Translations under genes and position numbers: made by a program
Part shown: one piece after another, positions 12,490 to 62,545 of the stretch
Layout: each line of letters starts with the position of its first letter
Position numbering within the stretch: position 1 is the first letter of the stretch
Source of the DNA: Lasiodiplodia sp. COLG20
Taxonomy: Eukaryota > Ascomycota > Dothideomycetes > Botryosphaeriales > Botryosphaeriaceae
Reading direction: 5' to 3'
Length of the DNA: 64,000 nt
NCBI GenBank assembly: GCA_009801085.1
Contig: VNWV01000001.1
Coordinates: 1,488,001-1,552,000 of the forward strand
Notes under the pieces: generated by a model
The model's database searches: none
Seen by the model: the letters and a program-made list of their open reading frames with translations, nothing else
Told to the model about the DNA's origin: nothing

Positions 12490-13990
12490 AGCGTGGTGTA
12501 TCGAGCAGTGGTCCTCAAATGAGTGGCAGCAAAGTGGCTGTTGCTGGCAGCGAGTTGGTATGCAGACTGGTGGAGAGCAGCGAAGGCGACGGATTCCTCG
12601 TAAAAGAAGGAAACGGGGGACACAGGGCTGCTTTAAACCATCACGACGACGGCGGTGCCCAAATTTACCCACACGACGGGATTCCCTTATCTCTAACGAA
12701 ACAGGGCCACACGCGACTCCACAAGAGCAAAAAGCAAAAATAAACCAACTTTTGCGCCTCCCCCGGTCGTTCGTTTGCTTGGCACCGTTGTCGGCGTCCG
12801 CCCGTATCATCGTATTCATTTCCACCGCCGCCTCGATCCAGCTTCGCGCCGCAATGCGAATGAGTGGTGCGCGCCCGCCCACACCCACCTAGTCAAGTTT
12901 CGCCGGCGTCCGACCGCAAAGAGCGACGTCGTCGCATCGTATTGCACGACTCTCGTTTCATAAATAGAACCTGCTCTTGTTTGGCACTAAAACTGCCCGC
13001 GCGCGCGCACGCACAGGGACGGCACGCCTGGGTCGCCAAAGGAAACAAGCTCTCTCGTAAGGCTGAGGCGGCGAGCGCGGAGTACAGGCCGACCCCTGGC
13101 GCGGGCGGAATGAACATCGACCAAGATTGGCTGTCGGTTATAGGGTGTTTAACCGAGTCGGGCAGGAATCAATGAAACGGAGCCAGTTAGCGCGCCGGGT
13201 TTTTGTGTCGCTATCGTACGCTTTTGCCGAGAAAGGATTCCAAGGATCTGCTTGGCTTCGGCTTCGCCGGGCGACTGTTCCGTCGTATCGCTTGCCGACT
13301 CCTCCGCCGTTGCGGCCCGCCGTTGTCGTCGTCCTGCAGGTTTATCTTTGATTGTTGGTGGCGATGGTGGTGCATTCTGTATGGAGTCGGCCGGCCGCGC
13401 AGGATCGGCGGAAATATGGCTGTTGCCGCGTTTCGGGGGAGATGTGCGGGAGGAGTGTGGAGACGTCGCGGGTTGAAGAGGGCGGCAATGACATGGGTGG
13501 AGGAAAAGGCGCTTGCCGGTTCGCAGATAGAGTTCGCACTGACTCGCGATGCAACGCCCTGGTGTTGCAGATGTTAATTGCTGCCCGCCACCCACCGGAA
13601 GAAAAATGTGTCGCGCGTCATAAAGGGCATTTCTCGCCTCCGCTCGGCACACACTGTGACGTCGGATCGAGTTGTCAGCTGCGATGTTTTCTCTGCGTGC
13701 TTGCAGCACTCACCGCCCGCTCAACTCCAGCATTGCGGCAATACGATGTCAATTTACTACCCGCCGGGACGACCCGCGCGCTATGCTGGCAAGTTGAAAC
13801 AGGGCTGAACAATGTCTTTCGGCTGCAGTGGTCGGGAATTAATTCAGACTTCTAAGCTTCGCAGTCTCGCCGTTCCGCAACCTAAACTATTTTCACCGGC
13901 GTCAAATCAGCTTTGAGTTTTAAGCAAATCAAATTTTCCAGAGATCCCGCCCAGCAAATCAGCCAGTGAAGTGCGCGCTTGAGCTGCCTA
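12490..13990. other. Upstream region and gene-poor DNA
   Basis: This holds the probable promoter of the 12155 gene and then sequence with overlapping short frames on both strands. No convincing gene. It ends where the first snoRNA array begins. Confidence 0.45.
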
Positions 13991-14677
13991 TGTAGCCATC
14001 CACTAGAAGAATTATTCTATTCGCGTCTGAAGTGAGACCCTCAGCCTTGGTTCTGGCTCACCCCGGCTTTTCGTACGCCTCGTGCGTGGACCAAGAGTTC
14101 ACGAAGCGACCCATGTCGAAAAGCTCGAAGTCAGACATGCCTGACACTCACGCTCATAACCTTCCAGTATTATGCTTCAGTTGCTAAATCCCGCACGCAA
14201 TCACTTAGTTCTGCCTACGTAGGTTTCCGTCGCGGAGAAGTCTCCGCACGGGTGAGCCGACGATGCTCCGCTCGCCGTGGAAAAATCCTACAAAAGTCGA
14301 CATTAGCATGTGTTTCAGCTAAGGGTGAAACTTTTCAATGTGTTTCAAGCTGCGGGAATCAGAGATACAGCGTTGTACTCATAGAAGAACTCAAGTTGCA
14401 CAAGTAGGTTTTGTCGTCATGTAAGCCGCAGGAGGATGGTCTTTGCACACTTACTTTTCCGGCTGACCTGACCACTTCAGTGGCCCTGCCTCAGGCGGTG
14501 ACGAACACCCCCAATCCACCTGTGCCTTGTAATTGTGGAAAATTGAACCATTCGAGTACGCGGACAGCGAGCTATCAAGCCTGGGCTCTTGCGAAATTCC
14601 TGCGAAAGATAGAAAAGCCATGTTAGCTGCTGCTTACATGAATCGGACGAGATGAAAACGGTGATAGAACGAATTCA

Positions 14678-14801
14678 GCCTCTCAGTCCAGCTCAAGGTT
14701 GTCATCGCGGAAACCCAGGCGACCCTCAGCCCGGAAGCGTCAGGAGCGGTTCGCTTAACAGTGTAGTTAGGAGCGGCTTTGCCACTCCTCATCATTGAGG
14801 C
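14678..14801 (-). ncRNA. Box C/D snoRNA candidate 1-b
   Basis: C box AUGAUGA at 14795..14789; D box CUGA at 14686..14683; perfect 5-bp terminal stem GCCUC/GAGGC. Possible D' CUGA at 14743 or 14729. Intron donor GTCAGT at 14840, acceptor CAG at 14602..14600 after GCTAACATGG. The bases 5' of D read AACCTTGAGCTGGA. Confidence 0.7.
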
Positions 14802-15004
14802 TCAGAATATGGACAGGGCAGAGTGAGGGAGATGACTGACCTGTCAGTATGCGGCTTATGCCAGGATCGACGAGCGTCTGTCGTCGGCGCAGCGTAGCGC
14901 TTGGAGAACGGCTTCGGTTGGATGAGTCTGACCTGATAAGCGTGAAGGTGGTCAGCAGGCTGTCGTAGAGCGAACAGGAACAGAAACAGCAATGACGCAT
15001 GGGG

Positions 15005-15123
15005 TGCCTAAGTCAGTCGAAGGTGGTGTTCTCATACTCAACCTAAGCGCCAAAACTCAGGCCTTGCGACCGGTTTGGAGCGGTTGAGTTTTTGAATCTC
15101 TTTGCAATTCATCATGAAGGGCA
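15005..15123 (-). ncRNA. Box C/D snoRNA candidate 1-c
   Basis: C box AUGAUGA at 15115..15109, D box CUGA at 15016..15013, D' CUGA at 15060..15057. UGCC/GGCA pairs outside a 4-nt spacer on each side. Donor GTGAGC at 15156. The interior (ACCGGTCGCAAGGCCTGA) is similar to candidate 1-d, so the two are probably duplicates. Confidence 0.6.
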
Positions 15124-15309
15124 GAACCAAAATGTCAGCAACTGGAACTTGCTCACCGGGGGTTCCAATCGCCTGTCTGTGGTCGAACATTCCATAAAGG
15201 GATCTCAGGATGGGCTGCGCAACAAGCTGGGCTTGCCATGACCTAGGCAGTATGGAGTGTCAGCTTTCATGGAGGACAGAAGAACGAAAACAACGGTGAA
15301 ACTCGGGGT

Positions 15310-15420
15310 GCTTAAATCAGACGAAGTTGCTCTCATGCTCAACCCAGGCGCCGATACTCAGGCTTTGCGGTCGGTTTCGAGCGGTGGAATGCGAAGTTCT
15401 TTACATTGGATCATGACGAA
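15310..15420 (-). ncRNA. Degenerate box C/D snoRNA candidate 1-d
   Basis: Paralogue of 1-c by its interior (GACCGCAAAGCCTGAGTATC, CGCCTGGGTTGAGCATGAGA). D at 15320..15317 and D' at 15361..15358 are intact, but the C box reads CATGATCC (15414..15408) and no terminal stem is seen. Donor GTGAGT at 15451. It may be a decaying copy. Confidence 0.4.
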
Positions 15421-15610
15421 AAAAAAGAATTGAATCGCTGGAGTCACTCACCCGTGATGTCCAGCGCTTTTCTGAGGTCCAAGATTTCACAATGCGAGTA
15501 CATGCGGCGTCTTGTCCTCTATAAAGGAGGAAGTCCTGCCGAGATCTCTGGCACTCAATTTCAGCATACTGTACATGAAAGGTGACGTGGAAAGGTGATA
15601 GCCAGACAAG

Positions 15611-15734
15611 TCCACTCAGATGATTCTGTTCGCGTTGCCAACCCAGACCGCTGACCACGCAGCCTCATGGCCAGCGGCGCTGGTTGACTAGAATGTAGCT
15701 AGACTTTTCGGCAGAAACCGGTCATCATCGTAGA
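15611..15734 (-). ncRNA. Box C/D snoRNA candidate 1-e
   Basis: C box AUGAUGA 15728..15722, D box CUGA 15619..15616, terminal stem UCUAC/GUGGA (one G-U pair). The upstream exon ends with two overlapping donors, GTAAGG and GTCAGTG. The interior block CTGGGTTGGCAACGCGAAC is shared with 1-f, 1-g and 1-h. Confidence 0.7.
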
Positions 15735-15864
15735 AAGAATTTGCAGTGCGCATCACTGACCTTACGTATTCTCGAGTGATTTATGAATTTTCCAAGGCCC
15801 TGCTATGACATAATTAGCACGATGCTCAAGAGATTCAGTGACGTCGAGAAAGAATTGTCGTGCG

Positions 15865-15977
15865 TCCACTCAGACAGCTTTGTTCGCATTGTCAACCCAG
15901 ACAGCTGACCTACGCCAGCGGGGTGGTTGACTAAACTGTACTGTTCAACGGGCCATGGCCCGTCATCATGGTAGAAG
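15865..15977 (-). ncRNA. Box C/D snoRNA candidate 1-f
   Basis: C box AUGAUGA 15971..15965, D box CUGA 15873..15870, same UCUAC/GUGGA stem as 1-e. Donor GTCAGTG at 16010; branch GCTAAT and acceptor CATAGCAG at 15802..15800. Just inside the C box, CGGGCCATGGCCCG forms a palindrome. The bases 5' of D (ACAAAGCTGT) differ from 1-e (ACAGAATCAT). Confidence 0.7.
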
Positions 15978-16114
15978 GAATGGGAGGTGTGCTAGGGGGG
16001 TCACTGACCGGATGTGTTCTCGAGTGACTGGTGCGTTTTCAAACTTCCTGCTCGGACTGAATTAGCAAGACGCTCAGAAAAAAACAGCGACGTTGGGAAG
16101 GAATGAGTAGTTTG

Positions 16115-16242
16115 AAAAGTCAGAAACGCTCAATGTGCGCATCGCCAACCCAGACAACCGAACACCTAGTCTTGCAACCGGATGGCCGGTATGGTTGACT
16201 AAACTGTATCCTGTCTGGGCCATGGCCCGGTCATCATAGAAG
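16115..16242 (-). ncRNA. Box C/D snoRNA candidate 1-g
   Basis: C box AUGAUGA 16237..16231, D box CUGA 16123..16120; I find no clear terminal stem. Shares the CGGGCCATGGCCC and AGTTTAGTCAACCA blocks with 1-f. Donor GTCAGTG at 16274, acceptor GAGCAG at 16050..16048. Confidence 0.55.
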
Positions 16243-16381
16243 GCAGGGGTGTGGTAGGGCTGAGCGTCACTGACCTTGGCATTCTCAAACGCGGTGCACG
16301 GCTCTCATGGTCCTGCGATGACTGGAATTAGCCAGCGGTCTTGGAAACACGATGTGGTCGAGGGGAACAGTGGGTGTGGTG

Positions 16382-16498
16382 TCGTGTCAGGGAGAGCTGA
16401 GGTTTTTTCGCATGGCCAACTCGGACAACCAACACCGAGCCATAGAGCCAGATGCCAGCGTGGTTGACTGAAATGTTCTTTCATTGTCATCACAAAGG
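16382..16498 (-). ncRNA. Box C/D snoRNA candidate 1-h
   Basis: C box GUGAUGA 16493..16487, D box CUGA 16390..16387. Diverged member of the 1-e/f/g set (GAGTTGGCCATGCGAA block). Donor GTCAGTA at 16557, acceptor ATCGCAG at 16315..16313. No clear stem. Confidence 0.5.
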
Positions 16499-16674
16499 AC
16501 GTGTGTCTGTGTGTGTATGGGAGTGTGTGTGCGCATTTTCAGTGGAGAGATACTGACCCCGGCGCTTTCCGGGCTTCATCTACTAGATTTATCGAGCTCA
16601 TCCTACTACTTCAAGGTTAGCCAGCTACCTCGAAAGACCAGTGATCGCGAAGCGTAAGTATGGACACAAGTGAG

Positions 16675-16751
16675 CCTCTCAGACTGACACGAATCTGTAG
16701 TAATCATGAACCGAAAGCAAGTAATAGGCCTTTGCAGTATCATCATCGAGG
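16675..16751 (-). ncRNA. Box C/D snoRNA candidate 1-i
   Basis: Compact unit: C box AUGAUGA 16746..16740, D box CUGA 16682..16679, perfect CCUC/GAGG stem, a C'-like CATGATTA between them. Donor GTAAGT at 16797; the next acceptor downstream is near 16,608 after GCTAACCTTG. Size is typical for the class. Confidence 0.65.
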
Positions 16752-16928
16752 AGGGGTGTGGATGTTGAAGCAAAAGGTCTGACTTACCGAGGGCATTTGG
16801 CTCCGTCACTTGGCCGTGCAAAGCCGGTGAGGATCGGCAGCGATGAGGCTGAGGGATTGCCCCTGCGAAATGCTTGATGTTAGCTCAGATCCTTGTAAAA
16901 GCGGGATGATGCAAAGGTGGACAAGTGA

Positions 16929-17083
16929 AGCCTCTAGTCAGGCGAGAAAATTCTCGCTCGATTTTTCTCAACAACGTCAACCCAGGCTCCCATACCCCCA
17001 GCTCCAAGAGCCAAGGCCAGAGGCAGGTGGGGTTGACTTAGCGTGCAGTGTATTGGGCCAAAAGGCACTCATCATACGAGGCT
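16929..17083 (-). ncRNA. Box C/D snoRNA candidate 1-j (long)
   Basis: C box AUGAUGA 17075..17069, D box CUGA 16941..16938, perfect 6-bp stem AGCCUC/GAGGCU with short spacers. The 138-nt C-to-D span is longer than usual and includes the array-wide CCTGGGTTGACG block. Donor GTCAGT at 17118, acceptor TTCGCAG at 16865..16863. Confidence 0.6.
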
Positions 17084-17242
17084 GTCATGTGCAGGCGAGA
17101 GGAGTTGGGAAGACTGACCGTTTTTCGCAAAGTCCACAAGCGGCATGCTCGACCTGAAGCCCTGCGAGGAAGAAAACAAACATCAGCGTCTGCCTTAACA
17201 AAGATCTTGAAACAAACAGCTAAGGCGAGGTGAGGTTCGCTT

Positions 17243-17430
17243 CTCAGGCGCTCAATGTTGCCAAAGCCAACCACAAGGTCAGCCGTAGCATCGCTTCTCG
17301 CCATCCTCACTCCCACACTCGCTTGCCACCGAAGCCAGGCTCTCAACAAGGAGGGGTCTCGGCAGCGCACGAGGCAGTTGCTCCGGCGCGGTTGGCATAC
17401 ACTCAGTGTACGTTTGTTCATCATGAAAGC
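17243..17430 (-). ncRNA. Possible box C/D snoRNA 1-k
   Basis: C box AUGAUGA 17424..17418 lies in an intron with donor GTCAGT at 17471 and acceptor CTCGCAG at 17164..17162. The D box is ambiguous: 17282..17279, or about 17246..17243, where AAGC could pair with GCUU beside the C box. Treat as unresolved. Confidence 0.35.
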
Positions 17431-17756
17431 AGAGGGTGGGCGCGGGCTGTGGCTCGGAGTTCGGAACTGACCTTGCAAGTGTGGGCGCTGTTGGGGCTGC
17501 TCGCAAGATTTTGCGATAAGATCTGGAGGGCGGTGCTAGCGGCGGAGGTATTCGGAGTCTGAGAGAGGACGAAGCGGGAGCGGAGGGAGCCGACGACTGG
17601 ATGGGTTGTCGGGTGAGCGGCGGGAGGCTTTGGAGGAGGGTCATTGGCGCTGCCGACGGGCGCGACGCGCTGCGGTGGTTGCGAAGGTCTGTGAAGGAGT
17701 ACTTGTCAGTTGAACGTTCAGTAAGGAAAGATGAGGACGATGGCGATGGGAGATAA

Positions 17757-17848
17757 TTGGATCAGGGAGGGTTTTGGCGTCAGTGTGACACAGGTCATGA
17801 ACCGGATCACCTCAGCGGTTAATCGCTGTATTTTGTTCATCATAAAAG
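17757..17848 (-). ncRNA. Box C/D snoRNA candidate 1-l
   Basis: C box AUGAUGA 17843..17837, D' CUGA 17815..17812, D box CUGA 17765..17762. The block TGACGCCAAAACC 5' of D recurs as TGACGCAAAA in 1-m and 1-n. The exon upstream ends AAGATAAGTGATC with no standard GT at the expected place. Acceptor TTCACAG at 17691..17689. Confidence 0.5.
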
Positions 17849-18024
17849 AAAAAAGGGATGTGTGATGGCATGAGGAGATCACTTATCTTGAAAGGGCCAC
17901 GGGAGGATGACCCGCATCAATCAAGCTGCGCAGCAAGCTACTTCAAGAGTGAAGATCTGCGGAGTGGTAGACGTTAGCTAAGAGCCCAGCAAGGAAAGAC
18001 AACGACGACAGCAGTGTAAGAGTG

Positions 18025-18132
18025 TAGGATCAGCTATGCGCCTGTTCAAACGCGGGAGATTTTGCGTCATGCGAACCCAGGTAGGTTCGCGTCAGATTTT
18101 AATCTTCGGAATTTTTTTGGTCATCATGAGGA
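18025..18132 (-). ncRNA. Box C/D snoRNA candidate 1-m
   Basis: C box AUGAUGA 18127..18121, D' CUGA 18095..18092, D box CUGA 18033..18030; bases before D read GAACAGGCGCATAG. Close duplicate of 1-n. Acceptor CCGCAG at 17959..17957 after GCTAACGTC; upstream exon ends AAGATACGTGATT. Confidence 0.6.
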
Positions 18133-18305
18133 AAGAGGAAGTGGGATGGGATGAGGAATCACGTATCTTGAAAGAGCCATCGAGGTAAGGTCTGAGTCAA
18201 TCGATCCGGGCGGCAAGGTGCCTCTGCAATGGAGATCTGCGGAGTAGTAGACGTTAGCTGACAGCCTAGTGAGGAAATTCAAGGACGACAGCAGTGTAGG
18301 AAGTA

Positions 18306-18416
18306 TAGGATCAGCCATGCGCCTGTTCAACGCGGGAGGTTTTGCGTCATGCGAACCTAGGTCGTGAACCGGTTCGACTAAGAGCTTAGTCTCTGATTTT
18401 TTGGTCATCATTGTGG
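18306..18416 (-). ncRNA. Box C/D snoRNA candidate 1-n
   Basis: C box AUGAUGA 18411..18405, D box CUGA 18314..18311; bases before D read GAACAGGCGCATGG, nearly the same as 1-m. Donor GTAAGT at 18453, acceptor at 18239..18237 after GCTAACGTC. Confidence 0.6.
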
Positions 18417-18550
18417 GACAGGTGAGGTGCAGTGCGAAAATAAAATGACTTACTTTGGTGAGAAGACGCCAGCTGGGGCATCTTGTAATCTGTCTGACAC
18501 GTTATCAAGAGGCAACCGAATGGAGGGCAGCAAGCAAGGTGAAGGGAAAC

Positions 18551-18643
18551 AGTAGTCAGACAAAATTTTTCGCGTCATTGAGACCGCGACCCGAAGGCCT
18601 GGTTACTAGGCGTGAAGTGCTGTGATTTTTGTCATCATAGAGA
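18551..18643 (-). ncRNA. Box C/D snoRNA candidate 1-o
   Basis: C box AUGAUGA 18638..18632, D box CUGA 18559..18556; TGACGCGAAAA relates it to 1-l to 1-n. Donor GTAAGC at 18679. The exon upstream (18726..18680) has acceptor CACTACAG after GCTGAC. Confidence 0.55.
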
Positions 18644-19016
18644 GGAGGTGAAGCGCGGGAGGATCAAAGGACGGCTTACCTTCTTCGCAAGACGAAGCCA
18701 TAATCGGAGCGGACAGGACGCGCAGTCTGTAGTGTGGAGGGACGTCAGCGCGAATCATAACAAGTTGCGACCAGAGTGGCAAAGTACTCAGCGCGAAGTC
18801 AGGCGACGCGAGGATGAGGCGGGCAGAAAACACTTACCGATAATGCAGTCGCGCCATGAAGAGGCGGACTGGAGTCAAGCGCAATGAAGCTGAAGGCGAC
18901 TCGAGTGGAGCAGAAGCTACAAATATCTTGCATTGGGGCAGTGGAGAGGTTGGGGGAGGAGGAGGCGCGAATGGGAGGAAGAGGTTATGGAGGAGGATCG
19001 GTGGTAGGCGTTGGGG

Positions 19017-19024
19017 TTTTTATA
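19017..19024 (-). promoter_or_regulatory. TATA box of snoRNA array 1
   Basis: Minus-strand GGGTATAAAAACCCC. It sits just upstream of the first exon of the array and resembles the boxes in repeat copies R2 (GGGTATATAAACCCC) and R4 (CCTATAAATACCCC). Confidence 0.5.
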
Positions 19025-19029
19025 CCCAG

Positions 19030-20320
19030 CAAAAAGGCAGATTTCTGCTTGCGCTCGTGCGAGTGGTTGCTAGCGCAACTGCGCTCCTGCCTGGAAGGGC
19101 GGCCGCATGGTGACGGTTTGGGAGGCCGTCAGCTCTGCGCGATTCTGCGGTCTTCTGCGGGCCACCTGTAAGGGAAGGCACGGCAGCGTGGCCGGTGTCG
19201 TAGAGCTTGGAGGAGCGCGAGTAGTCGCTCCGCAGGGCGGCGTGCTGGGTGGCTTGTCTTAGAGGAGTCGCCGCTGGGCGATAGGGTCGTCAAGCCAGCG
19301 GGCCTCCCCCGACGCGCCGCGCCCACTTTTGGCGGACTATGGCATCAAGGGCGCTGTGCTCATTGTCGCTGCTCTCGATACTGCTGAAGCACCACGACTA
19401 GCAAAGTTTTCAAGTCTCTCTGCTTTCCTTCTGAAGTTCTGGAAAGGCCACGCCGTCTACTGATTCACTCTGCCCAGCAGCAAAAACCAACTTCCACAAT
19501 AACACAGTTCTTATGTCATGCATGACTATCTACAGAACACCACAGGATTGAAGCAGAATACCACCACCCATCCATTTCTACAACGCGATGGCAGTGACCA
19601 CACACAGCAATCATTTTCATCGAGAACGTTCACTAAAATACAGAGTCCCGACATGCTTTCACAACTTGCCCTCCGACCTGCACACACCACACGGACCTCG
19701 CATCCTCAGGAATTCTTGACACTCAGGCCACTGTCGTCTCCGGTAATCTCGCCCAGTCCCATCAACCATAGACGTTGATCCACACAGGCCCCACGCGCGG
19801 CTCGCTCGCCATGCCTGCACTACGCCACGGGCCATCGCCAACACGCTTTTCGTCATGTCGGATGACTGCATCGAGCTTGTCGCGGCCAAGCAGCAGATCG
19901 ATCACGGCTGGCCCGGCCACCGATTCCACTCACGACGCCAAGCCCTCCCCCCGATGGGCGTTCACATCGCCTGCTGCGGCCATTGACAATCGGAACATTC
20001 CACGACACACGGGAGGAGCATCTGCCGATGGAACACCAGATATTCTTCTGCCATTCGCGCGGGAGCGTGGGCGATCAGCGCAGCTTTCTCGGCTTTGAGC
20101 TGGGAGATGAATGGCAGCCAGCAACTCGATCGGGATCGAGAGAGCTGATTGGGAAGCTGCTGGGTTGATGTTTTCAGCAGGACCGTGATCATAGAGCCGT
20201 AGCTTGGATATATAGATGGCCGTCTGGGCAGCGGGCAGACCGGCCGACACCACCAACGGTCACAGGTCTCCGATAACCCTCTACAACATGACGGAGCGGT
20301 GCTGAGCGGCTGAAAGTCAA
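19030..20320. other. Gene-poor interval
   Basis: This is upstream of array 1 and downstream of the RING relic. A minus-strand frame near 19,962-20,190 reads like protein (ISQLKAEKAALIAH) but has no supported start or splice sites. Nothing else convincing. Confidence 0.4.
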
Positions 20321-26229: not shown

Positions 26230-28420
26230 TCTATACGAGAATCGCTTCGACAAGAATTCAGAAAAGTGTGCGCGTGTGTCTGAATGACGGGCGGCTTGGT
26301 CCAGCGACTGCGCAGATGGTTTTCGGAAGTCGGAACGATGCAGGTGGAGTGGAGGAGGAGCGCGGTCCGGCGCAGGAATATTGCTGCAGGAGAAAGACAG
26401 CTGCGCCGTGCACGGTCCAGAGTGGCTAACCCATTCTGGAGTGCGAGTGTCAGCAAGCGGTGGCTAATTTGCATTCACCATAGAGGATATTCGAGACGTA
26501 CGCACCTTATTGAGAGCTTAGCCATGTTGTGCGAATTCCTCCTGCACAGCCGGCAGGATCAAGACTGCGGAAGAAGCAATAGTCTCCCGACATTCGTTCC
26601 ATCTTGCGGGTAACAGTGGATGATGTCACCGTGGTTGTTGGAGGTTGTTTGTTTGACCGAGGCCACACAGAATCCTGCAAGCACACCGAATGGGCTGCCG
26701 ATGTACTGCGCTGCTGGCACCGCGTGCCATGCAGGACATATTCTCCTGTTGCTTGCAGATCTTTCCGTTGAAGGTGGTGGCCACTGTCATGAAAGAAGTG
26801 GCGGTGCCCGAGGGCCGGTGCGTCATGTAGCAAGCAAGCCAACAGAGGACTGAGCATAGCTTCAGCCCTCAAAATCGGCAGCTGTGTTCGTGGAGGAGAG
26901 AATCTCGTTAAATCCAGGCGGTGGATATGCAAGGCTTTTTGGTGGAGTGAACTGAAAGAAGCCAAAGATTCCCACTCCCAGGTCAAGACCTGGGAGGCAT
27001 CGTGAGCGTCACTGCTATTCTCAATCACATTAGCCATGTCATTTACTCCGTGATGGACAGAATCTTACGCGCAGGCTGAGGGTTCCAACGAGCGCCCTCA
27101 GCTTTCAGCTGCCTGGGGCCATGTTGCGAAGGTAAGCCGTAGGATAGCCGAGATCACCCCCGCGTAAATGTTTGTCGGTCGTGGAATTGTTAACAAGGAA
27201 GCGGAGCCCAAGATTACCTGGTAGTAGCATGGAGTCTGAGTACCTCTGTATGTCTGGAATGATAATGTCTCATGTGCTCGTAACGAAGGAGCCCGGTCAT
27301 TTGCAAGAAAATAAATAAGGGATCTGATGGATGATATTGCACATTTGACGCAAACATGGAAAGGCATTGGGACTACGGCTTCGTTTCCATCTATGGCTTG
27401 CTGAAATGAGCAATCGAATAACTTATTTTGGTGTGCTACGTGTATGGCCCAGATCAATTGTTGTTATCGCGCTTTCCCTTTTTCTTTTTCTCCCGTTTCG
27501 CTGTCAATTTTCAACTCTGCTAATCCACAAACAAATATTATGCGCAATGTTCAGGCAGTTTCTTGACTCGGAATTTTCATAATTATTTAGTTTGGCCATA
27601 TTTGAAACTATCCAAACAGTAGTCACCCGCTTGCTTTCACATCCGGCAAAATTCACGGTGTTGAAGTCTATCGTCATCTCGCAACGTCGTACGACAATGG
27701 CATGCTTCGATCTGCTTGGCATCACGGAGCCTTTGGAGCCCAACATTCCCCTCTGTAAAAAGTACTGTGAGTTCATTTCGAGCCGATATTGTTGTACAGG
27801 CTGTTCCGTCCGCTGCTGAGGCAGCTGTTAGCATTGTCGAAAACTCGCTTGCTATCGGATAGTGCGCCCAGTTTGCCCCACAGACATCAGTGTTTGTTGC
27901 GCTCCACTCCAAAAATAAGCTGTTACAAGCAGGCAGGGCTGTTTTCAGGCCGATCTCAGACGCAAACACGTCTAACGGCTTTGCTCGCCGTACTTTCACA
28001 TGCAATTGCTCTTCGCATACCTTGCGACTGCGCGAAGGAAATCCAAGCTGGAAAATCGGGACACCAAAATGGAATCAAATCTGCAACGCTACCAGAGCAG
28101 CAGGAGTTTTCATTCAAAATCACAGCACAAATCTGGTCACAAACGGCAAAGTTGAGATTGATTGTATTACGCCCACAGGCTCTGATCAACAGCTATCGTT
28201 GATTGTGTCTCTCTCATCTCAAATATCTCAAGCAGGATCAGGTCATGGCCACGTCCAACACGATGGTTCTCGGCTCGGTTGCAGCGACCAGGCCGAAGCG
28301 AGGTCACGCCCGTTGCTCCTGTGGACTCCATGTTCATCATATCCCGCATCTCCTTTCTCATCTCCTTCCTCCATGAAACCAAGGCCGAAGCCACCACCAA
28401 TTTCTTAAATCATACTGGAC
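26230..28420. other. Gene-poor, more AT-rich interval
   Basis: A minus-strand stretch at 26,870-26,560 has protein-like pieces in more than one frame (GSPFGVLAGFCVASVKQTT; DYCFFRSLDPAGCAGG) but no single model fits. 27,100-28,300 is the most AT-rich part of the window and holds only short frames. Array 2 begins at its right edge. Confidence 0.4.
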
Positions 28421-28422
28421 TA

Positions 28423-28542
28423 AGCGGGATCAGAGTTTTTCAAGTGTAGCTTAATGCTTTTTGTTCATCGAGTCCGGACGCCCAGCTGAAGCAAGGCGAC
28501 ACAGTACTCTAGACTTGTTCTTTCCATTTCATCATTTCCCGC
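28423..28542 (-). ncRNA. Box C/D snoRNA candidate 2-1
   Basis: C box AUGAUGA 28535..28529, D box CUGA 28432..28429, perfect 6-bp terminal stem GCGGGA/UCCCGC, internal C'-like CGATGAAC and D'-like CTGG. Donor GTGAGT at 28579. One of the most canonical units; bases before D read ACTTGAAAAACT. Confidence 0.75.
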
Positions 28543-28739: not shown

Positions 28740-29095
28740 GGGCTTTTTTTTTTCTCTCTCAAGATCCTCTCTACTCGTTTGTTTTTTCTGGTACTTGCGG
28801 TCTTCTTCTGCCTTCTCTCTCTCTGTTTTTTTTTTTTTCTACCGCGTAAGGACTCCAGCCGAAGCCATCACTGCCCGAGGGATCAGTTCTGTGACCACGT
28901 ATCATCCCCGGATTCGACGGTGAAGCAGCAATGCCAGCGACACCGGGACCAGCGGCCCTAAACGTCTCCTCCGATCGAGTGCGACAGAACAACTCATCAT
29001 CTCCCTCTTCTCTTTGTCTCTTCTTCTCTGTGTTTCTCTCTCTCTCTCTCGTGTTTGTTCTTCTGTGTTCTTCTCTCTCTGCTTTTCTCTCTCGG
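28740..29095 (+). repeat. Two polypyrimidine/CT microsatellite tracts
   Basis: At 28,741-28,842 and 28,999-29,096 the plus strand is nearly pure C/T (long T runs, CTCTCTCTCT). Each is followed by a block containing CCGAAGCCA, suggesting a duplicated module of about 250 bases inside array 2. Confidence 0.6.
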
Positions 29096-29132: not shown

Positions 29133-29289
29133 AAGTTGCGCGGATCAGACAGAAACCCCCAGTACCCACTAGCTCGTGTAGCAACGTAGATTTTTTCATC
29201 GAGCGCCGGGAGCCGAAGCCACCTCGTGACCGGAGCCCCGTCGCACTGAAACGTTCTTTCACAGATTTCTCTGGTCATCATCTCAACTT
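29133..29289 (-). ncRNA. Box C/D snoRNA candidate 2-2 (long)
   Basis: C box AUGAUGA 29281..29275, D box CUGA 29148..29145, 6-bp stem AAGUUG/CAACUU outside 2-nt and 6-nt spacers. Donor GTAAGT at 29373. The interior includes one of the purine-rich tracts only at its edge. The spacers make this weaker than 2-1. Confidence 0.45.
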
Positions 29290-29769: not shown

Positions 29770-29855
29770 CTCGTCAGACAAGTCTTGGGAGAGGGATAAC
29801 GGCGCCAACAGACCCAAGTCCCAAGAGCGCACTACGTGCCAATCATCATGGGAGG
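29770..29855 (-). ncRNA. Box C/D snoRNA candidate 2-3
   Basis: C box AUGAUGA 29849..29843, D box CUGA 29777..29774, spacing typical. Donor GTATGA at 29878, branch GCTAACTG near 29,722. No clear stem. Confidence 0.5.
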
Positions 29856-30037
29856 TATGGAAGGGGGAGGGGTCATACACACAGAACGTTATTTGAGGAG
29901 GCCATGACTCGCGCCGGTCGAGCTACGTGGAGTCCAGGGATGAATGGCGTTCTCGCAGTGAGCCGCAGTCCCTATCACTCTTCTTTGTTAGCTGACAGTC
30001 AAGTCTAATGCGTTTCTTGGAGAAGTTCGCGAAGGAC

Positions 30038-30143
30038 GCCCCCCCTCAGTCTTAGATATGTTGTGATCATATGGCACGCGTGGACAGAACCCAAGCACGG
30101 TTCCGTCAGAAAGTAGCTGAACATGACAATTCATCATCGGGGC
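30038..30143 (-). ncRNA. Box C/D snoRNA candidate 2-4
   Basis: C box AUGAUGA 30137..30131, D' CUGA 30109..30106, D box CUGA 30049..30046, stem GCCCC/GGGGC. Donor GTAAGT at 30169, acceptor GTGATAG at 29974..29972 after GCTAACAAAG. Bases before D read CACAACATATCTAAGA. Confidence 0.65.
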
Positions 30144-30329
30144 ATGTGTTGAGAGAGATGCTGACTTACAAAGGGAAATCGACCGGATCAATCCCAAGGA
30201 CACGGTGGTGGCCGTTCCACAAGGTGACCTGTGGCACTCGAGAAGGAGCAGTACTAAGGTGTTTGCTAGTTGTCGAGTTAGCCTGTGTTCTAATCAAACG
30301 ATATTTTTCGAGTGCTTGAGGACAATTGG

Positions 30330-30437
30330 ATATTCAGAGTTAGCACTAGTTGTAATCGTAGACACCAAGAGCCACGGTGCCATCAGAGAGAGTTAAAAGT
30401 CGTCGAAGAAGGTCTCTACGACGACGCATCATGGGGG
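30330..30437 (-). ncRNA. Box C/D snoRNA candidate 2-5
   Basis: C-like box AUGAUGC 30432..30426, D' CUGA 30386..30383, D box CUGA 30337..30334. Donor GTAAGT at 30474; branch GCTAAC near 30,281 with acceptor AACTAG. The changed last C-box base lowers confidence. Confidence 0.45.
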
Positions 30438-30599
30438 AATGTAAAAACAAAGGTGACGAGAGGCAATGACTTACTAAGAAAGCTACGCGGCGTCGGTCCA
30501 TAGTCCGAGGAGATTGATATTCGTACTAGCGTTCCTATGACTCTTTATAGTTAGTCTGTATTCCACGAACGGCCTGAAACGCTGATTGACAATGTAATC

Positions 30600-30711
30600 C
30601 CCAGTCAGGAAGCTCATAAAGATCATATAACCTGTGTTAAGAAACGTTACGCACGGGTCCATCAGAGGTAATGACTGTTTGAAACTTTCGTTTCAAGGTT
30701 CATCATGGCTA
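30600..30711 (-). ncRNA. Box C/D snoRNA candidate 2-6
   Basis: C box AUGAUGA 30706..30700, D' CUGA 30665..30662, D box CUGA 30608..30605. Donor GTAAGT at 30745, branch ACTAAC near 30,552. Bases before D read CTTTATGAGCTTC. Confidence 0.55.
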
Positions 30712-30878
30712 CGGGAAGAGAGCAATAGCAGAGATAGAAACTTACAAAGAAGGCTTTCCGCTTCATCCGCTGTAGCGCGACCCTTTCATGACTGCCATTC
30801 GAAGAATTCCTGCGAGAAAAAAATAGGAATTAGCCTGTGTCCAAAGGCATGATATCAGATTCCCAAAGTGAAGGGATG

Positions 30879-30996
30879 TGTCTCAGTTGATAGCTCTCTT
30901 TATCAAGATAGCTTTCGTCACCTGAACCAGCCATGGCCATGGCCATGGCGGTTCCATAAGACGCAGTAACAATTCTTTTGACTTTCATCATCGACA
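30879..30996 (-). ncRNA. Box C/D snoRNA candidate 2-7
   Basis: C box AUGAUGA 30991..30985, D box CUGA 30886..30883, perfect UGUC/GACA stem. Donor GTGAGT at 31034, branch GCTAAT and acceptor CTCGCAG at 30812..30810. Interior has CCATGGCCATGGCCATGG. Bases before D read GATAAAGAGAGCTATCAA. Confidence 0.65.
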
Positions 30997-31221
30997 AATG
31001 AACGGCGCCATCATCAAACAAAAACTCGACTCACCGAGGTGAAGCCACCACCAAAGGGCAAAGAGCTGCTGGTGGTAGATGAAAGGTGGACAAGAGCATC
31101 GTAGATCTTCTGTGCCAGTCGACGGGTCCGAGGGAGAGGGCCGTGGCTCGCGCGGGATAAGCCTGTCGTGTAGTTAGTTGATGCCATGAAGAGGATGTGC
31201 GAGAAAAGAAGCAAGGAGTCC

Positions 31222-31323
31222 GCAGTCAGGAGCTCTGTGTTGTCATTGATTACGTCCGCCGCAGCGCTTAAACCATCGAAAAGTGCAATGATTCCCTGGC
31301 GAACCAGGGATCATCATGCGTGT
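31222..31323 (-). ncRNA. Box C/D snoRNA candidate 2-8
   Basis: C box AUGAUGA 31317..31311, D box CUGA 31229..31226, short CGC/GCG pairing. Donor GTGAGT at 31353, branch ACTAAC and acceptor ACGACAG at 31165..31163. Bases before D read CACAGAGCTC. Confidence 0.6.
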
Positions 31324-31467
31324 TGAAGTTGTGTTGCAGGAAGATGCACTCACCATGTCAAGGATTAAACATAGCGTCAACGTCGGAGCTGTGATGGGCG
31401 AGTGAGTCTGCAACGATGATTAGCTTGTGTTCTGACCCAGATGTAAGACAAGAACGCAATAATTGGA

Positions 31468-31575
31468 TGCCTTCAGGAGCTCTTAATCTAATATCTCTTC
31501 ATTGGTTTCAGCTCGCAGCGTCAACCATATGATGTAGGAACTGCTCATTATTGTTTTTGGTATCATCATTAGGCA
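31468..31575 (-). ncRNA. Box C/D snoRNA candidate 2-9
   Basis: C box AUGAUGA 31569..31563, D' CUGA 31511..31508, D box CUGA 31476..31473, perfect UGCCU/AGGCA stem. Donor GTATTT at 31614, branch GCTAAT and acceptor TTGCAG at 31410..31408. Bases before D read GATTAAGAGCTC. Confidence 0.7.
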
Positions 31576-31718
31576 GGGAGGGTCTGGTCAAGGAAAGAAG
31601 AAATGCGGAAATACCTTTGACAAACAACTACCCGAGCGGGTGGTATGAGAGAGCACCCTGCGAATGTGGTTAGCTTTTGTCTGAACAAGAAGTGAGGCAA
31701 AAGACGTGTATGATAGAT

Positions 31719-31824
31719 GGGGTCAGCAGCTCTTTATCTTGGTTTGATCATTGGTTATAGCATGCCAGCGACAAATGCGTCAACCATAAGATGTAGCTTG
31801 ACGCGTTTGAAACATCATTCCAGG
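31719..31824 (-). ncRNA. Box C/D snoRNA candidate 2-10
   Basis: Paralogue of 2-9 (shared ATGGTTGACGC and AACCAATGA blocks). C-like box AUGAUGU 31818..31812, D box CUGA 31726..31723. Donor GTGAGT at 31863, branch GCTAAC and acceptor TTCGCAG at 31660..31658. Bases before D read GATAAAGAGCTG. Confidence 0.5.
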
Positions 31825-36879: not shown

Positions 36880-37160
36880 GAAAAGATAAAAGAACAGAGG
36901 TCGCGTCAGCCCGAGATAGTGCAATACGAGCGACACTGTGGTAAGCGAAGTATGAGCGGAGCTCAGGGACCAAGCCACCCGGTTCCAAAAAGATTTTTGC
37001 CAAAAAGGCAGCCGTCCGTAGACAACTCGTTCCCGGTTAGGGGAACAATAAAAGCGCACTGCACTTGGTCCCAGCCTAAAGGCCAGTAGAAGCATAAGAA
37101 GAAAAAAGAAAAAGAGGAGAGGAGTCGGACGATCTGGGGGGTTTAAGTACCTGGGCACCG
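36880..37160 (-). repeat. Dispersed repeat copy R3
   Basis: On the minus strand this has GGTACTTAAACCCC as a TATA-like box, a pyrimidine tract (CTCCTCTCCTCTTTTTCT), CTGAGCTCCGCTCAT, then ACAGTGTCGCTCGTATTGCA. It shares these in the same order with R4. A frame reads TVSLVLHYLGLTRPLF. Confidence 0.55.
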
Positions 37161-46032: not shown

Positions 46033-48717
46033 CTAATCCGTCTCCATCGCATCATCATCCTCATCCCCTCCCAACACCACAATCCTTCCCCCATCCACCA
46101 CACACCCCTCGACCCTCACCCGCCCATGCAACCCCGCATACCCACTCGCCTCGGGGATCTTACTCACCCCCTTCGGCGGCACCAGCCAGAACAAATCATC
46201 CGGCAGGACCAGCGGATCCGTCACATCCGGCGCCAGCAGCAAATCGCTCGTGACAGCGAAGAGCCGCTGCTGCTGCCGCAGCGTCGTAGTACCTTCAGGG
46301 GTCCAGGCCGCGAGCAGCCCGAACTGCCAGCAGTGCCGCGACAGCCAGCGCAGCTGGTCCGGCGCCGTCGCCGGCGTGCGCTCCTGCGCGAGGTACCAGC
46401 CGCGCAGCACCAGGCGGGACAGCAGGGTGACTTCGTTGTGCGCGGCCGCGGGGAGCGGGGAGAAGGCGTCGGCGTGGAGGACGCGGAGGAGCTCGGTGGT
46501 CGGCTTGTGGAGGGCGGCGAGGGAGAGGGTTTTGATGGCTTCGCCTTCGGAGACGTCGATGGTGGAGGAGGCGGAGGAGGCGGTGTCGGTGTCGGAGTCG
46601 GAGGAGGGGGGCTTGCTGAGGATGTGGCGGAGGGGGCCGCCGATGTCGTAGCGCGTGAAGGCGGCGTCGGTGGCGGCGGGCCACATCATGTAGGCCAGGC
46701 TGGAGGTGATGGAGTCCCAGTCGGTGTTGTCGAGGAAGGCGGAGAGGTTGGAAATCAGCTGCGCGTCGTCGAACTGCGCCAGGCGGGCCAGCTGCCCGTG
46801 CTCGAGGTCGCCGACGAAGCTGTCGACGCGGTGCAGGAGCATGGCGCTGTCGACGACCAGCTCGACGCTCTCCTTGACCGTCAGCTCGACGTTGCCTGCG
46901 AAGGCGAGGTTGCGCAGGCGCAGCGTGTCCGTCGGGAGCATGGCCTCGCGCAGCTGCTTCAGCATGGCTTCGCGGGGCTTCTCGTAGCTCGATTGGCTGA
47001 TGATCTGGGCCAGCGCGTTGAGCTGGCCAGTGACGCGGGGGTAGGCGCCCGCGCGGTACGCGATCCACTTGCGGCGGTGCATGCCCATGGCCGCCGCCGG
47101 GCCGGGGATCTTGAACCGGTCGCTGGCGACGAGAGTAGCGGCGTCGTCCAGAGCCCGCGTCAGCTGGCACAAGCCGTCGTACAGCCCCTCGCCCAGAATC
47201 TCGCCCGCCTTCTCGGCCATGCCGAAGCTGAAGATCCTCGCTTGCACGGTGGCTGGGAGCGAGTGCCAGTTGCCGCTCAGAGCCATGTTCGCAGCCTCGC
47301 CGGTGTCGGCGTCCAGGGCGACGAGGAAGTCTGAAAGAGCGCCGGTGGTGTCCGGCTCGTCCTTCAGGCCCTTGATGAGGTGCTCAGCGACCTTGCCCTC
47401 GTACTCGCAAGCGTGGTCGAAGTAGACTTCCGAGACGCTGGCGCGGACGGCCCTCGCGAGTTCGGCGGTCGGCGGCTCCGGCCACTCGTCCCTCGCGACG
47501 ACGCGCTCGATTTGCTGGTAGGTTGCGCGGCCGCAGATTCCGAGGCAACAGTGGTAGAAGCCGATGCACATGACTTCGAACGGGTCGGCTGCGTCCGGCT
47601 CAGCTCCATCCGACTCGATTGCATCAGGCTCGGCGGCATCAGGCTTGGCGGCATCCGGTTTGGCTGCTTCGTAGGTCTTCATTTTCTCCTCGCCAACCCT
47701 TTCGATGATGTCGGAGAAGCAGTCGGCAACGTTGTAGTTGCTGTTCTGCCACAACTCCGGGTACTCGAGCGCGACGGCCTGGGTCGTGCGGTGTGTTAGG
47801 TTGCGACTCAGGATCTGCACCAGCCACCCCTTCATCAGCTGCTCGTATCTCTGGAGAGCGTGCCTGACCTTACCGATAGCCCTCTTGATGCGGGTCTCGA
47901 TCTTCAGGAGGTCGCGTAGCCTATCCAAGGCGTCATCTGCCGGAACGAGCTTCGGCGGGATCGCAGGCGGGCGGTCGTAGCGGCGGAGAGCACGAAGCTC
48001 AGCGTCGTGGCCCTTGAAGACGAATGCCGTCTTGACCATCTCGTCGAGCAGGCCTTCAAGGAAAGGCTTGTTAAGGAGCTGGCGAGACATCCGGGCAGCA
48101 GACATCATGAATTGCCTGTCGTAGGGGTCGATCGACACGAGCCGAAAGATCCTCTCCGCAGGCCCCTTCTGGTCCGGCTCGGGAACGCCACGCACGAAGT
48201 ACTCCAGCGTGTTCCACTGGCAAAACATCTTCTCCGCCGCCTCGTAGCGAAGGAGGCGGATAGTAGCAGTGTGCTCCTCGCAAGCGGCAAGCGGAGCGTC
48301 CAAAAGGTTGGCCTGTGCCTCGGTCCTGACAGTGTCGATAGCCTGCACGGTGGTGTAGCCCTCGTGCAGGTTCAGCCGCAGAACGCGGCGCTGCTGTTCC
48401 GGCGGCATGTGTTGGAATCGCCGCAGCCGAGCAACGTTCTCCTCCTGTTCGTATTGAAGCTCCGGTGTAGGGGGAACCCAGTTGCGTGCCTCTTCGCGCC
48501 GAGCCTCGATGTCGAGACGGCGCTGAGTGCGGCGTCCGATGCGGCGAGCCAGATCGTCCTCATCCGAAGAGGCAAAGGGGTCGATGTTGGAGTTACTGGG
48601 GTTGCTGTAGTCGTTGTAGCGGCGTGGAAGAATGTAGTGGTTGTAGCGGTGGCGTGGCAAGGCGATCCGGTCGCTGCCATCGCTGCTGGAAGTGGAGGAG
48701 CGGCGAGAGTTTGGCAT
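46033..48717 (-). CDS. Family member C, 894 aa, unknown function
   Basis: I chose MPNSRRSSTSSSDGSD at 48717 over the more upstream in-frame ATG, because it matches the paralogues and the upstream codons run through a poly-T/A tract that looks like leader. Landmarks: QHMPPEQQRRVLRLNLHEGY, AERIFRLVSIDPYDRQFM, RLRNLAFAGNVEL, LRWLSRHCWQFGLLAAW, VTDPLVLPDDLFW. A segment of imperfect AAKPDAAEPDAIESDGAEPD repeats lies near 390, and an acidic Ser/Asp stretch (SDSDTDTASS) lies near 740. The protein ends in an acidic tail (GGDEDDDAMETD). No known domain. Codon use is strongly GC-ended in the C-terminal third, which leaves long open antisense frames that are not genes. Confidence 0.75.
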   Translation of the reverse strand: MPNSRRSSTSSSDGSDRIALPRHRYNHYILPRRYNDYSNPSNSNIDPFASSDEDDLARRIGRRTQRRLDIEARREEARNWVPPTPELQYEQEENVARLRRFQHMPPEQQRRVLRLNLHEGYTTVQAIDTVRTEAQANLLDAPLAACEEHTATIRLLRYEAAEKMFCQWNTLEYFVRGVPEPDQKGPAERIFRLVSIDPYDRQFMMSAARMSRQLLNKPFLEGLLDEMVKTAFVFKGHDAELRALRRYDRPPAIPPKLVPADDALDRLRDLLKIETRIKRAIGKVRHALQRYEQLMKGWLVQILSRNLTHRTTQAVALEYPELWQNSNYNVADCFSDIIERVGEEKMKTYEAAKPDAAKPDAAEPDAIESDGAEPDAADPFEVMCIGFYHCCLGICGRATYQQIERVVARDEWPEPPTAELARAVRASVSEVYFDHACEYEGKVAEHLIKGLKDEPDTTGALSDFLVALDADTGEAANMALSGNWHSLPATVQARIFSFGMAEKAGEILGEGLYDGLCQLTRALDDAATLVASDRFKIPGPAAAMGMHRRKWIAYRAGAYPRVTGQLNALAQIISQSSYEKPREAMLKQLREAMLPTDTLRLRNLAFAGNVELTVKESVELVVDSAMLLHRVDSFVGDLEHGQLARLAQFDDAQLISNLSAFLDNTDWDSITSSLAYMMWPAATDAAFTRYDIGGPLRHILSKPPSSDSDTDTASSASSTIDVSEGEAIKTLSLAALHKPTTELLRVLHADAFSPLPAAAHNEVTLLSRLVLRGWYLAQERTPATAPDQLRWLSRHCWQFGLLAAWTPEGTTTLRQQQRLFAVTSDLLLAPDVTDPLVLPDDLFWLVPPKGVSKIPEASGYAGLHGRVRVEGCVVDGGRIVVLGGDEDDDAMETD

Positions 48718-48719
48718 GA

Positions 48720-49899
48720 TGTTTTTTTTTTTTTTTTTGGTGGTAGATAGGTTTTCAAGTTGAGCTTGCGGGAAATGAAGAGATTTTGTAAGTAGAAGTG
48801 GAAGTATAGAAAGGTATGGGTGCAAAGCTCGAGTCGAAGTGTTGGGCGATGTTTCGTAAAAGTACGCATCTCCTGGAGCTTAAGTATATCGGCATCTCTG
48901 CCATGTTCATAAACTTTGCCTGAACAAGTCCGGAAGTCAGGACGAAACAATGTGAGAGTTAACACTTCCATGTTGATCAAGCCGTGGAGCTAGCTGTGTA
49001 CACCAAACTGATCTGCTGTGGCGGAGCTACCACTGAAAGAATGATATATAGAAAAGTATAATCCAAGAACTCACGCATATAACAGACAGAGTCGATGTCT
49101 GCGAAGGTTCCACTCCAAAGCTATGTTACGTCTTTATAGGAAGTGCAATATGCAAACACCTATACGCGTCATTGTCGTTTATGAAAGTGCAACATCCTTC
49201 CAGGGCGTTCTGGACATGCTGTGTCAGACCGAATACTTCAACTACAAACAATTAGACTGCTGGTTTCTACAATCAGAGGTTTCGAGCATTATTGAAAGAT
49301 GTGTCCAATTGCCTCTGATTCTCACCATGCGTGATGCAGACTCACTGAAACATTTCTTTGTTCTAACATGTTGCATTACTCGCTGAGGACTTTCTTTGTA
49401 TTCGCTATCAGATGCAACAACATCACTATGCCTTTCAATCAAATAAAGAAAATTCTCTCTCTGATTTTTCAGCAATCAGAGATGGACGCCTTTCCTCTCC
49501 CGCGGATGGTGACGCCTTTAGGTCAAGGACACTGCTTGTGCATTTAGTGCACCGATCCTATATCGACTATACCATAGCAATCCAGCTCATAGACCGTGCT
49601 CAATACTTGGGTAGAATACACACATCTAATGGGTGAACAGATAGAACGTAATGAGTAAAGCATGCATCCTCCGCAAAACGCTGGCAACGGTAACAATGCA
49701 TTGGCAGATGTACGTTGGAATATATACAGCCTGGCTCACTAGATCTTATCTTTCACAATGGACGCGCAATTTCTTTTAATTGATGACAATTGGTATCTAA
49801 CCATTTTCCATCTATGATCTAATTCGACAAAAGGGTATCAAACATCTGTGCGGTACATGAGCGTCTTGACTGTATTTGGTAATCCATATCTCCAATGCC
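48720..49899. other. Intergenic region between genes C and D
   Basis: 48,721-48,738 is an uninterrupted T tract just 5' of gene C (its leader on the minus strand). 48,850-49,890 is AT-rich with only short frames; no gene seen. Confidence 0.5.
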
Positions 49900-62180: not shown

Positions 62181-62545
62181 ACTCAACACTTTACTGCGCC
62201 TCAACTCCATTTTCTTTTCCCAGATCTTCTCTTCCCAGATTCTCTCTTCCTCAAAGACCGGCTCAAGACCAGTCGATTGAAGAAAAGATAAAAAGGTTGG
62301 TCGCGTCACCCCGAAGTAGTGCAATACGAGGGACACTGTGCACCTGTGACATGAGCGGAGCTCAGCGGCCCCAGGGCGGGTGCCAAAAAGTAGTTTAATC
62401 AGGAGAAAAGCCCCGCGTAGGGACATTCTAGAGATTAAACTAAAAAGAACAGCAACTGCGCTTGATCAGAGCCAAAAGGCAAAGAGAGCGTTGAAGAAGA
62501 AAAAGAGGAGCTGGGGCGAGGAGTGGAGGGGTATTTATAGGCGCG
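62180..62545 (-). repeat. Dispersed repeat copy R4 with an 82-codon frame
   Basis: On the minus strand this has CCTATAAATACCCCTCC at about 62,540, the pyrimidine tract CTCCTCTTTTTCTTCTTC, CTGAGCTCCGCTCAT, then ACAGTGTCCCTCGTATTGCA. An ATG frame (62426..62178) reads MSLRGAFLLIKLLFG, later TVSLVLHYFGVTRPTFLSF and EEERIWEEKIWEKK. In the R3/R4 comparison of the HYxGxTRP block, several differences are synonymous, so a short peptide gene family is possible; an RNA repeat or remnant mobile element is as likely. Confidence 0.5.

Follow-up and report, generated by a model that had tools for sequence, protein, structure and literature searches.

In the passages cited here, the mammalian host transcript SNHG14 is credited with 29 SNORD116 and 48 SNORD115 introns, whose box C/D small nucleolar RNAs (snoRNAs) have no known targets (PMC11608373), and high similarity is reported among the mammalian SNORD115/116 copies (PMC5748676). 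Among fungi, the part of the Neurospora crassa survey used here places 45 of 55 C/D snoRNAs in introns and describes six C/D clusters; five of the cluster hosts have only short open reading frames (ORFs), in the manner of UHG, the snoRNA genes are mainly singletons, and 2 of the 55 C/D snoRNAs are orphans (PMC2780460). Fungal cluster I, snR72 to snR78, consists of seven different ribosomal RNA (rRNA) guides, as far as the cited section goes (PMC3596301). Here, we analyzed a 64-kb window of Lasiodiplodia sp. COLG20 (bases 1488001-1552000 of contig VNWV01000001.1; the assembly, GCA_009801085.1, has 43.5 Mb in 88 contigs), and all positions below count from the first base of this window. On its minus strand, between about 18990 and 14290, we find 16 introns in succession, 15 of which carry a box C/D snoRNA-like unit (u1 to u15, array 1). 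An earlier note, made from the letters of the window, had proposed an array of intronic C/D snoRNAs hosted by a non-coding gene. We confirm the observation, and the interpretation gains support: such an array is the best reading because of the intron layout, its match to the U14/snR190 locus of the same genome, a covarying stem inside the units and the lack of a coding signal in the exons. As judged from these sequence features, the locus is probably best explained as a tandemly expanded host gene of orphan C/D snoRNAs, similar to SNORD115/116.

Introns, boxes and exons of array 1

We modeled the non-coding host gene with 17 exons and 16 introns (14037..18990, minus strand), assuming both transcript ends. 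A TATA box (TATAAA) was expected from the earlier note, and one lies upstream of the array at 19019..19024(-), with transcription assumed to start near 18990; TATAAA occurs 10 times on the two strands of the window, this copy at 19024(-) included. The donors are of the GTRAG/GTCAG kind, except for two weak ones (GTGATT in u3 and GTGATC in u4), and the acceptors are YAG. The branch points are mainly GCTAAC, GCTAAT or GCTGAC, the departures being TGATAAC in u1, ACTGAC in u4, GCTGAT in u5 and GCTGAA in u11.

The C box reads exactly RTGATGA in 13 of the 15 units, with ATGATC in u12 and ATGACGA in u15. About 14 introns with this motif had been claimed; the array is real, but the count becomes 16 introns with 15 units, 13 of them exact. 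The D box, CTGA, is intact in 15/15 units and lies 52-61 nucleotides (nt) 5′ of the branch point; u4, u6, u9, u10 and u15 each have two branch-point candidates, of which the stronger was used, and the alternative gives 34-52 nt. A D box held at such a fixed distance is as expected if snoRNP (small nucleolar ribonucleoprotein) assembly is coupled to splicing. The donor-to-C-box distance is 32-47 nt in 14 units and 64 nt in u8. Measured from the first base of C to the last base of D, the claimed span of 65-140 nt holds for 13 of the 15 units but not for u5 (181 nt) and u15 (61-62 nt).

From C to D, all on the minus strand, the series begins with u1 at 18556..18638 (intron 18679-18494), u2 at 18311..18411 (intron 18453-18237) and its duplicate u3 at 18030..18127 (intron 18162-17957). 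They are followed by u4 at 17762..17843 (intron 17882-17689), u5 at 17244..17424 (intron 17471-17162), u6 at 16938..17075 (intron 17118-16863), u7 at 16679..16746 (intron 16787-16603) and u8 at 16387..16493 (intron 16557-16313). Further downstream are u9 at 16120..16237 (intron 16274-16048), u10 at 15870..15969 (intron 16008-15800), u11 at 15616..15728 (intron 15760-15536) and u12, with its imperfect C box, at 15317..15414 (intron 15451-15243). The last three are u13 at 15013..15115 (intron 15156-14933), u14 at 14683..14795 (intron 14840-14600) and u15, again with an imperfect C box, at 14359..14420 (intron 14454-14288). The first intron of the gene (18727..18837, minus strand) has no C box and has a CTGA about 53 nt before its branch point.

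Performing 2000 runs of dinucleotide shuffling, we find both boxes in place in 13 of the 16 introns, against a shuffle mean of 0.01 and a maximum of 1; the D box alone is in place in 16/16, against a mean of 1.52. This layout greatly exceeds what chance would give. Because the units repeat one another, the introns are not fully independent in these counts. This repetition is what one would cite for the explanation that the units are not snoRNAs at all, and that we are looking at chance motifs in repeated introns or at a protein-coding gene with many introns. We find that explanation hardly credible. Chance motifs are contradicted by the box geometry just given. A coding gene might be seen in a 91-codon frame across exons 1-5 of the joined exons; a homologue search with its product returned none at E 10, and the joined exons, with the assumed ends 18990 and 14037, give a longest ATG-started frame of 130 codons, a length reached in 318 of 1000 shuffles. 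The internal exons are 38-217 nt long and their lengths are not in one phase, which bears out the earlier description of tiny exons without a shared frame. The joined exons of array 1 carry no coding signal, as in a host without a coding function. Pfam gave no match for any of 19 long frames taken from the window.

Paralogy of the units and the stem between D′ and C′

The repeats cross the unit boundaries; for example, 144 nt with 75% identity cover the intron ends of u2 and u3 together with the following exons. Comparing eight pairs of neighbouring units, we find 61-83% identity from C to D, above shuffles in 8/8 pairs (z 3.3-9.8, a value that rises with segment length), so that neighbours differ at 17-39% of the positions between the boxes. 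The preceding exons reach a z above 3 in only one of the eight pairs and are less alike than the C-to-D parts in seven; these exons vary in length and may not be true counterparts. Judged by sequence, the units are diverged paralogues. A nucleotide search of the genome for further copies returned the array 1 locus only.

The D′ and C′ boxes themselves are degenerate in the array 1 units. A 7-base-pair (bp) stem of the form NNNAACC/GGTTNNN joins them in 11 of the 15 units (u2, u3, u5, u6 and u8-u14), and is lacking in u7 and u15 among the others. In an alignment of eight units, three of the seven stem pairs have changed in both bases. Of 500 shuffles, 2 attained the covariation score of the stem, 0.316, and sliding the partner arm gave at most 0.082. 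When the 11 units were read by hand, pairing held in 74 of 77 cells, which was equalled by 1 of 20000 permutations; in these stem tests the arms were picked by eye, one bulge was omitted, the units are related and the inner AACC/GGTT is near-invariant. The units thus have a predicted internal C′/D′ motif of the box C/D snoRNA type, with compensatory changes. In u9, u10 and u14 a hairpin directly follows the C box, at the guide position.

We built a covariance model, R1, from eight units. It recovers u1, which was outside the training set, at E 0.01, and also matches w1, a unit near a second array described below, at E 0.17. Run on 15 other loci, R1 gave U14 as its sole match, a weak one (14.4 bits, E 0.3).

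Several observations weigh against reading the locus as an orphan C/D snoRNA host gene. R1 did not find u2, u3, u4, u5, u7 and u15 at E 10. Taken singly, only u6, u9, u10, u11 and u13 have a folding-energy z below -2 (5/15), that of u12 is +1.5, and units seldom have a helix longer than shuffles do. In the u3/u4 pair, the C-to-D identity (61%) is exceeded by that of the preceding exon (69%) and by that of the donor-to-C segment (74%), and the short segments from branch point to acceptor are often as alike as C-to-D, with z up to 5.2. Rfam gave no snoRNA family at the gathering score in the window and none at E 10 in 13500-19500; the lack of a family match is tempered by the U14 of the same genome, which also misses its cut-off (37.1 of 64 bits). 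Six units had been reported to have terminal stems of 4-6 bp. That count was reproduced (6/15), but 31% of mismatched 5′/3′ flank pairs form such stems too, so they add nothing as evidence. We rejected terminal stems as an argument for snoRNAs, being no commoner than chance; those of U14 and snR190 in the same genome are 0 and 3 bp.

We also weighed whether array 1 is a relic, a once-active snoRNA cluster whose copies decay and from which stable RNAs are no longer made. The imperfect C boxes of u12 and u15, the first intron with a CTGA and no C box, the four units without the D′/C′ stem and guides that match nothing would all suit a decaying array. Yet the D box is intact throughout and the C box exact in 13 of 15 units despite the 17-39% divergence of neighbours, and the compensatory changes in the stem speak against decay as well. 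We therefore hold the relic to be quite improbable.

An array of active snoRNA genes would work as follows, the transcription, splicing, snoRNP assembly and trimming being inferred from what is established for snoRNAs in general. From the TATA promoter, RNA polymerase II would make a non-coding transcript, to be spliced at 16 introns. Fifteen of these would be debranched and then trimmed by exonucleases to C/D snoRNAs of roughly 62-181 nt, with the snoRNP proteins on C/D (Snu13, Nop56, Nop58 and Nop1) protecting the ends and stopping the trimming. The gene itself may have grown through tandem duplication of exon-intron units, during which 11 of the 15 units would have kept a second motif, D′/C′ joined by a paired stem, and the guide segments would have diverged.

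Guide segments and candidate targets

We compared the guides with yeast 25S, 18S and 5.8S rRNA, a checked yeast 25S sequence standing in for the native one. None of the 15 D guides of array 1 beat the best 5% of 250 shuffles; the best was that of u15, with 48 of 250 shuffles as good. At the listed yeast methylation sites, no unit's best pairing rose above the maximum of its 20 shuffles, a test in which snR190 (20.5) would fall within the shuffle range and U14 and snR38 (26) above it. The same holds for the snR72-78 guides of fungal cluster I: pairing at the listed yeast sites stays within the shuffle range for every array 1 unit. By the measure of 10 or more pairs ending at D or D′, with the target at D+5, the array 1 units would not be methylation guides for yeast rRNA. 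A pattern search for a canonical snR74 gave three matches, two pieces of 18S and one unrelated site, and all three were rejected.

Three snoRNAs of the same genome served as positive controls. The D guide of U14, the only U14 match in the genome, forms a 14-nt pairing with 18S that targets C414 (1 of 250 shuffles as good). In the intron adjoining that of U14, snR190 uses D′ for 25S-G2395 (2/250). The third, snR38, is intronic (locus L014, 1442-1640), has an imperfect C box and apparently uses its D′ for 25S-G2815 (0/250); its host gene is presumably that of elongation factor 1B gamma, compare yeast TEF4. We take 18S-C414, 25S-G2395 and 25S-G2815 to be methylated in yeast, C414 being the U14 site. 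Since snR38, U14 and snR190 all score, the method recovers true guides with yeast rRNA as the target. The U14/snR190 locus has the layout of array 1, with 50 and 51 nt from D to the branch point and, in U14, 42 nt from GTCAGT to the C box.

One conserved pattern did not find native 25S in the assembly. The 18S gene at the end of contig C67 consists of broken, partly duplicated pieces, and the patterns tried gave no other ribosomal DNA (rDNA). With native 25S not recovered by that pattern and 18S broken, lineage-specific rRNA targets would be missed. This matters for a second explanation, a conventional fungal cluster that guides 2′-O-methylation of rRNA or small nuclear RNA (snRNA) at lineage-specific sites or sequences. 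Array 1 has the C/D boxes and intron layout of true guides, in u3 the D′ guide pairs over 12 nt with 25S (10/250 shuffles as good) and one D′-like box of u5 has 0/40 shuffles as good against rRNA. Against it stand the failure of all 15 D guides and of every unit at the listed sites, and the recovery of the three controls with those very yeast sequences as targets. Known snoRNA targets sit in conserved rRNA, which also counts against lineage-specific guides. On this evidence, we regard a conventional guide cluster as unlikely.

Among 112 guides of both arrays, D and D′-like (the scan reported guides scoring 17 or more, or any D box), five had 0/40 shuffles as good, where about three are expected: u5, v2, v3 twice and v5 D, the v units being those of array 2. 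None of the five lies at a listed yeast site.

Other RNAs gave nothing convincing either. Against ten U2 copies (nine of 31 listed, plus the second copy of the window), U6 and U3, the best guide was u13 D with 12 nt, for which shuffles were not run. Against transfer RNAs (tRNAs), the best were u4 D (1/60 shuffles as good) and u13 D′ (4/60); the targets were 30 loci out of 60 matches, with 16 distinct sequences, one of them untrimmed and scanned with its flanks. In the roughly 2 kb that precede the partial 18S, a stretch that includes another 18S fragment, u10 (1/60) and u13 (4/60) were the best D guides.

Beyond the earlier note, we thus find that the units are paralogous, that a D′/C′ stem is present and that the guides have no rRNA match above shuffles. 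A kept, stem-closed C′/D′ module, diverged guides and the post-C hairpin of u9, u10 and u14 point to orphan snoRNPs that serve non-ribosomal targets or have a guide-free role. On these sequence features, we consider it most likely that the units are orphan C/D snoRNAs, acting on non-rRNA targets or without a guide.

Neighbouring features and comparison with known systems

Upstream of array 1 lies array 2, a smaller array of eight units (v1 to v8) of like design on the minus strand; the boxes span 29774..31818 and the array about 31863-29700. The C box is exact in six of eight units, the D box lies 51-57 nt from the branch point in 8/8, and a D′-C′ stem is seen by eye. In rRNA pairing, 0/40 shuffles were as good for v5 D and 3/40 for v4 D. 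Downstream of array 2, w1 (29145-29281, minus strand) has a D guide whose 16-nt pairing with yeast 25S (2674-2689) puts A2678 at the target position (0/250 shuffles as good); A2678 is not among the listed yeast sites. Three further C/D-like units, w2-w4 (28883-29000, 28430-28535 and 28238-28340, minus strand), each have a terminal stem of 6 bp, which sets them apart from most array units, and comparison with yeast rRNA gave no strong guide.

U2 snRNA forms a large, diverged family in this genome, with at least 31 matches, 30 of them above the cut-off, and the copy at 36895 in addition. Two copies lie in the window (62295-62492 and 36895-37096, both minus strand), and the first 80 nt differ among the copies seen. 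The copy at 62295 has GCGCAGTTGC as its branch-point-pairing stretch, whereas eight better copies have GTGTAGTATC or GTGTAGTAAC. The frame at 46033-48879(-) is, over residues 60-500, 82% identical to a Lasiodiplodia hormozganensis protein; the next matches, including L. theobromae, have 58-59%. Among public bacterial records, a Planomonospora contig with yeast-like rDNA and a contig of an Armatimonadota metagenome-assembled genome with a fungal 5.8S/internal transcribed spacer end are probable contamination.

Comparing array 1 with the U14 locus of the same genome, we see the same intron layout, and U14 too has a stem before C′ (by eye). In contrast to U14 (18S-C414) and snR190 (25S-G2395), the array 1 units have no such guides. 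Like the fungal snoRNA hosts of the cited passages, array 1 holds one C/D snoRNA-like unit per intron in a polycistronic, UHG-like host with short ORFs. The fungal clusters in those passages are short, up to the seven members of cluster I, and hold different rRNA guides, whereas array 1 consists of 15 paralogues without rRNA guides. As a locus, array 1 is both real and unusual.

Array 1 also resembles SNORD115/116: a single non-coding host carries tandem paralogous C/D units, one in each of a run of introns, and no target is recognised, for array 1 in yeast rRNA. The differences are that array 1 is fungal, that its 15 units are diverged, that they have the D′/C′ stem, and that its RNAs are predicted from sequence. 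Our searches of open-licence papers in PubMed Central (PMC) turned up no fungal array of orphan C/D snoRNAs; the class is known, and the variant seems new for fungi within that literature. More tentatively, and with more doubt than confidence, we suggest a lineage-specific fungal counterpart of SNORD115/116, with a sister array of similar design about 10 kb upstream, in which the stem-closed C′/D′ scaffold was kept and the guides were remade by tandem duplication into a diversified set that would act on messenger RNAs or other non-ribosomal RNAs. If array 1 is an orphan C/D snoRNA host gene, a filamentous fungus would offer a simple whole-array deletion to probe the role of orphan C/D snoRNAs, and SNORD115/116-like expansion would not be peculiar to mammals.

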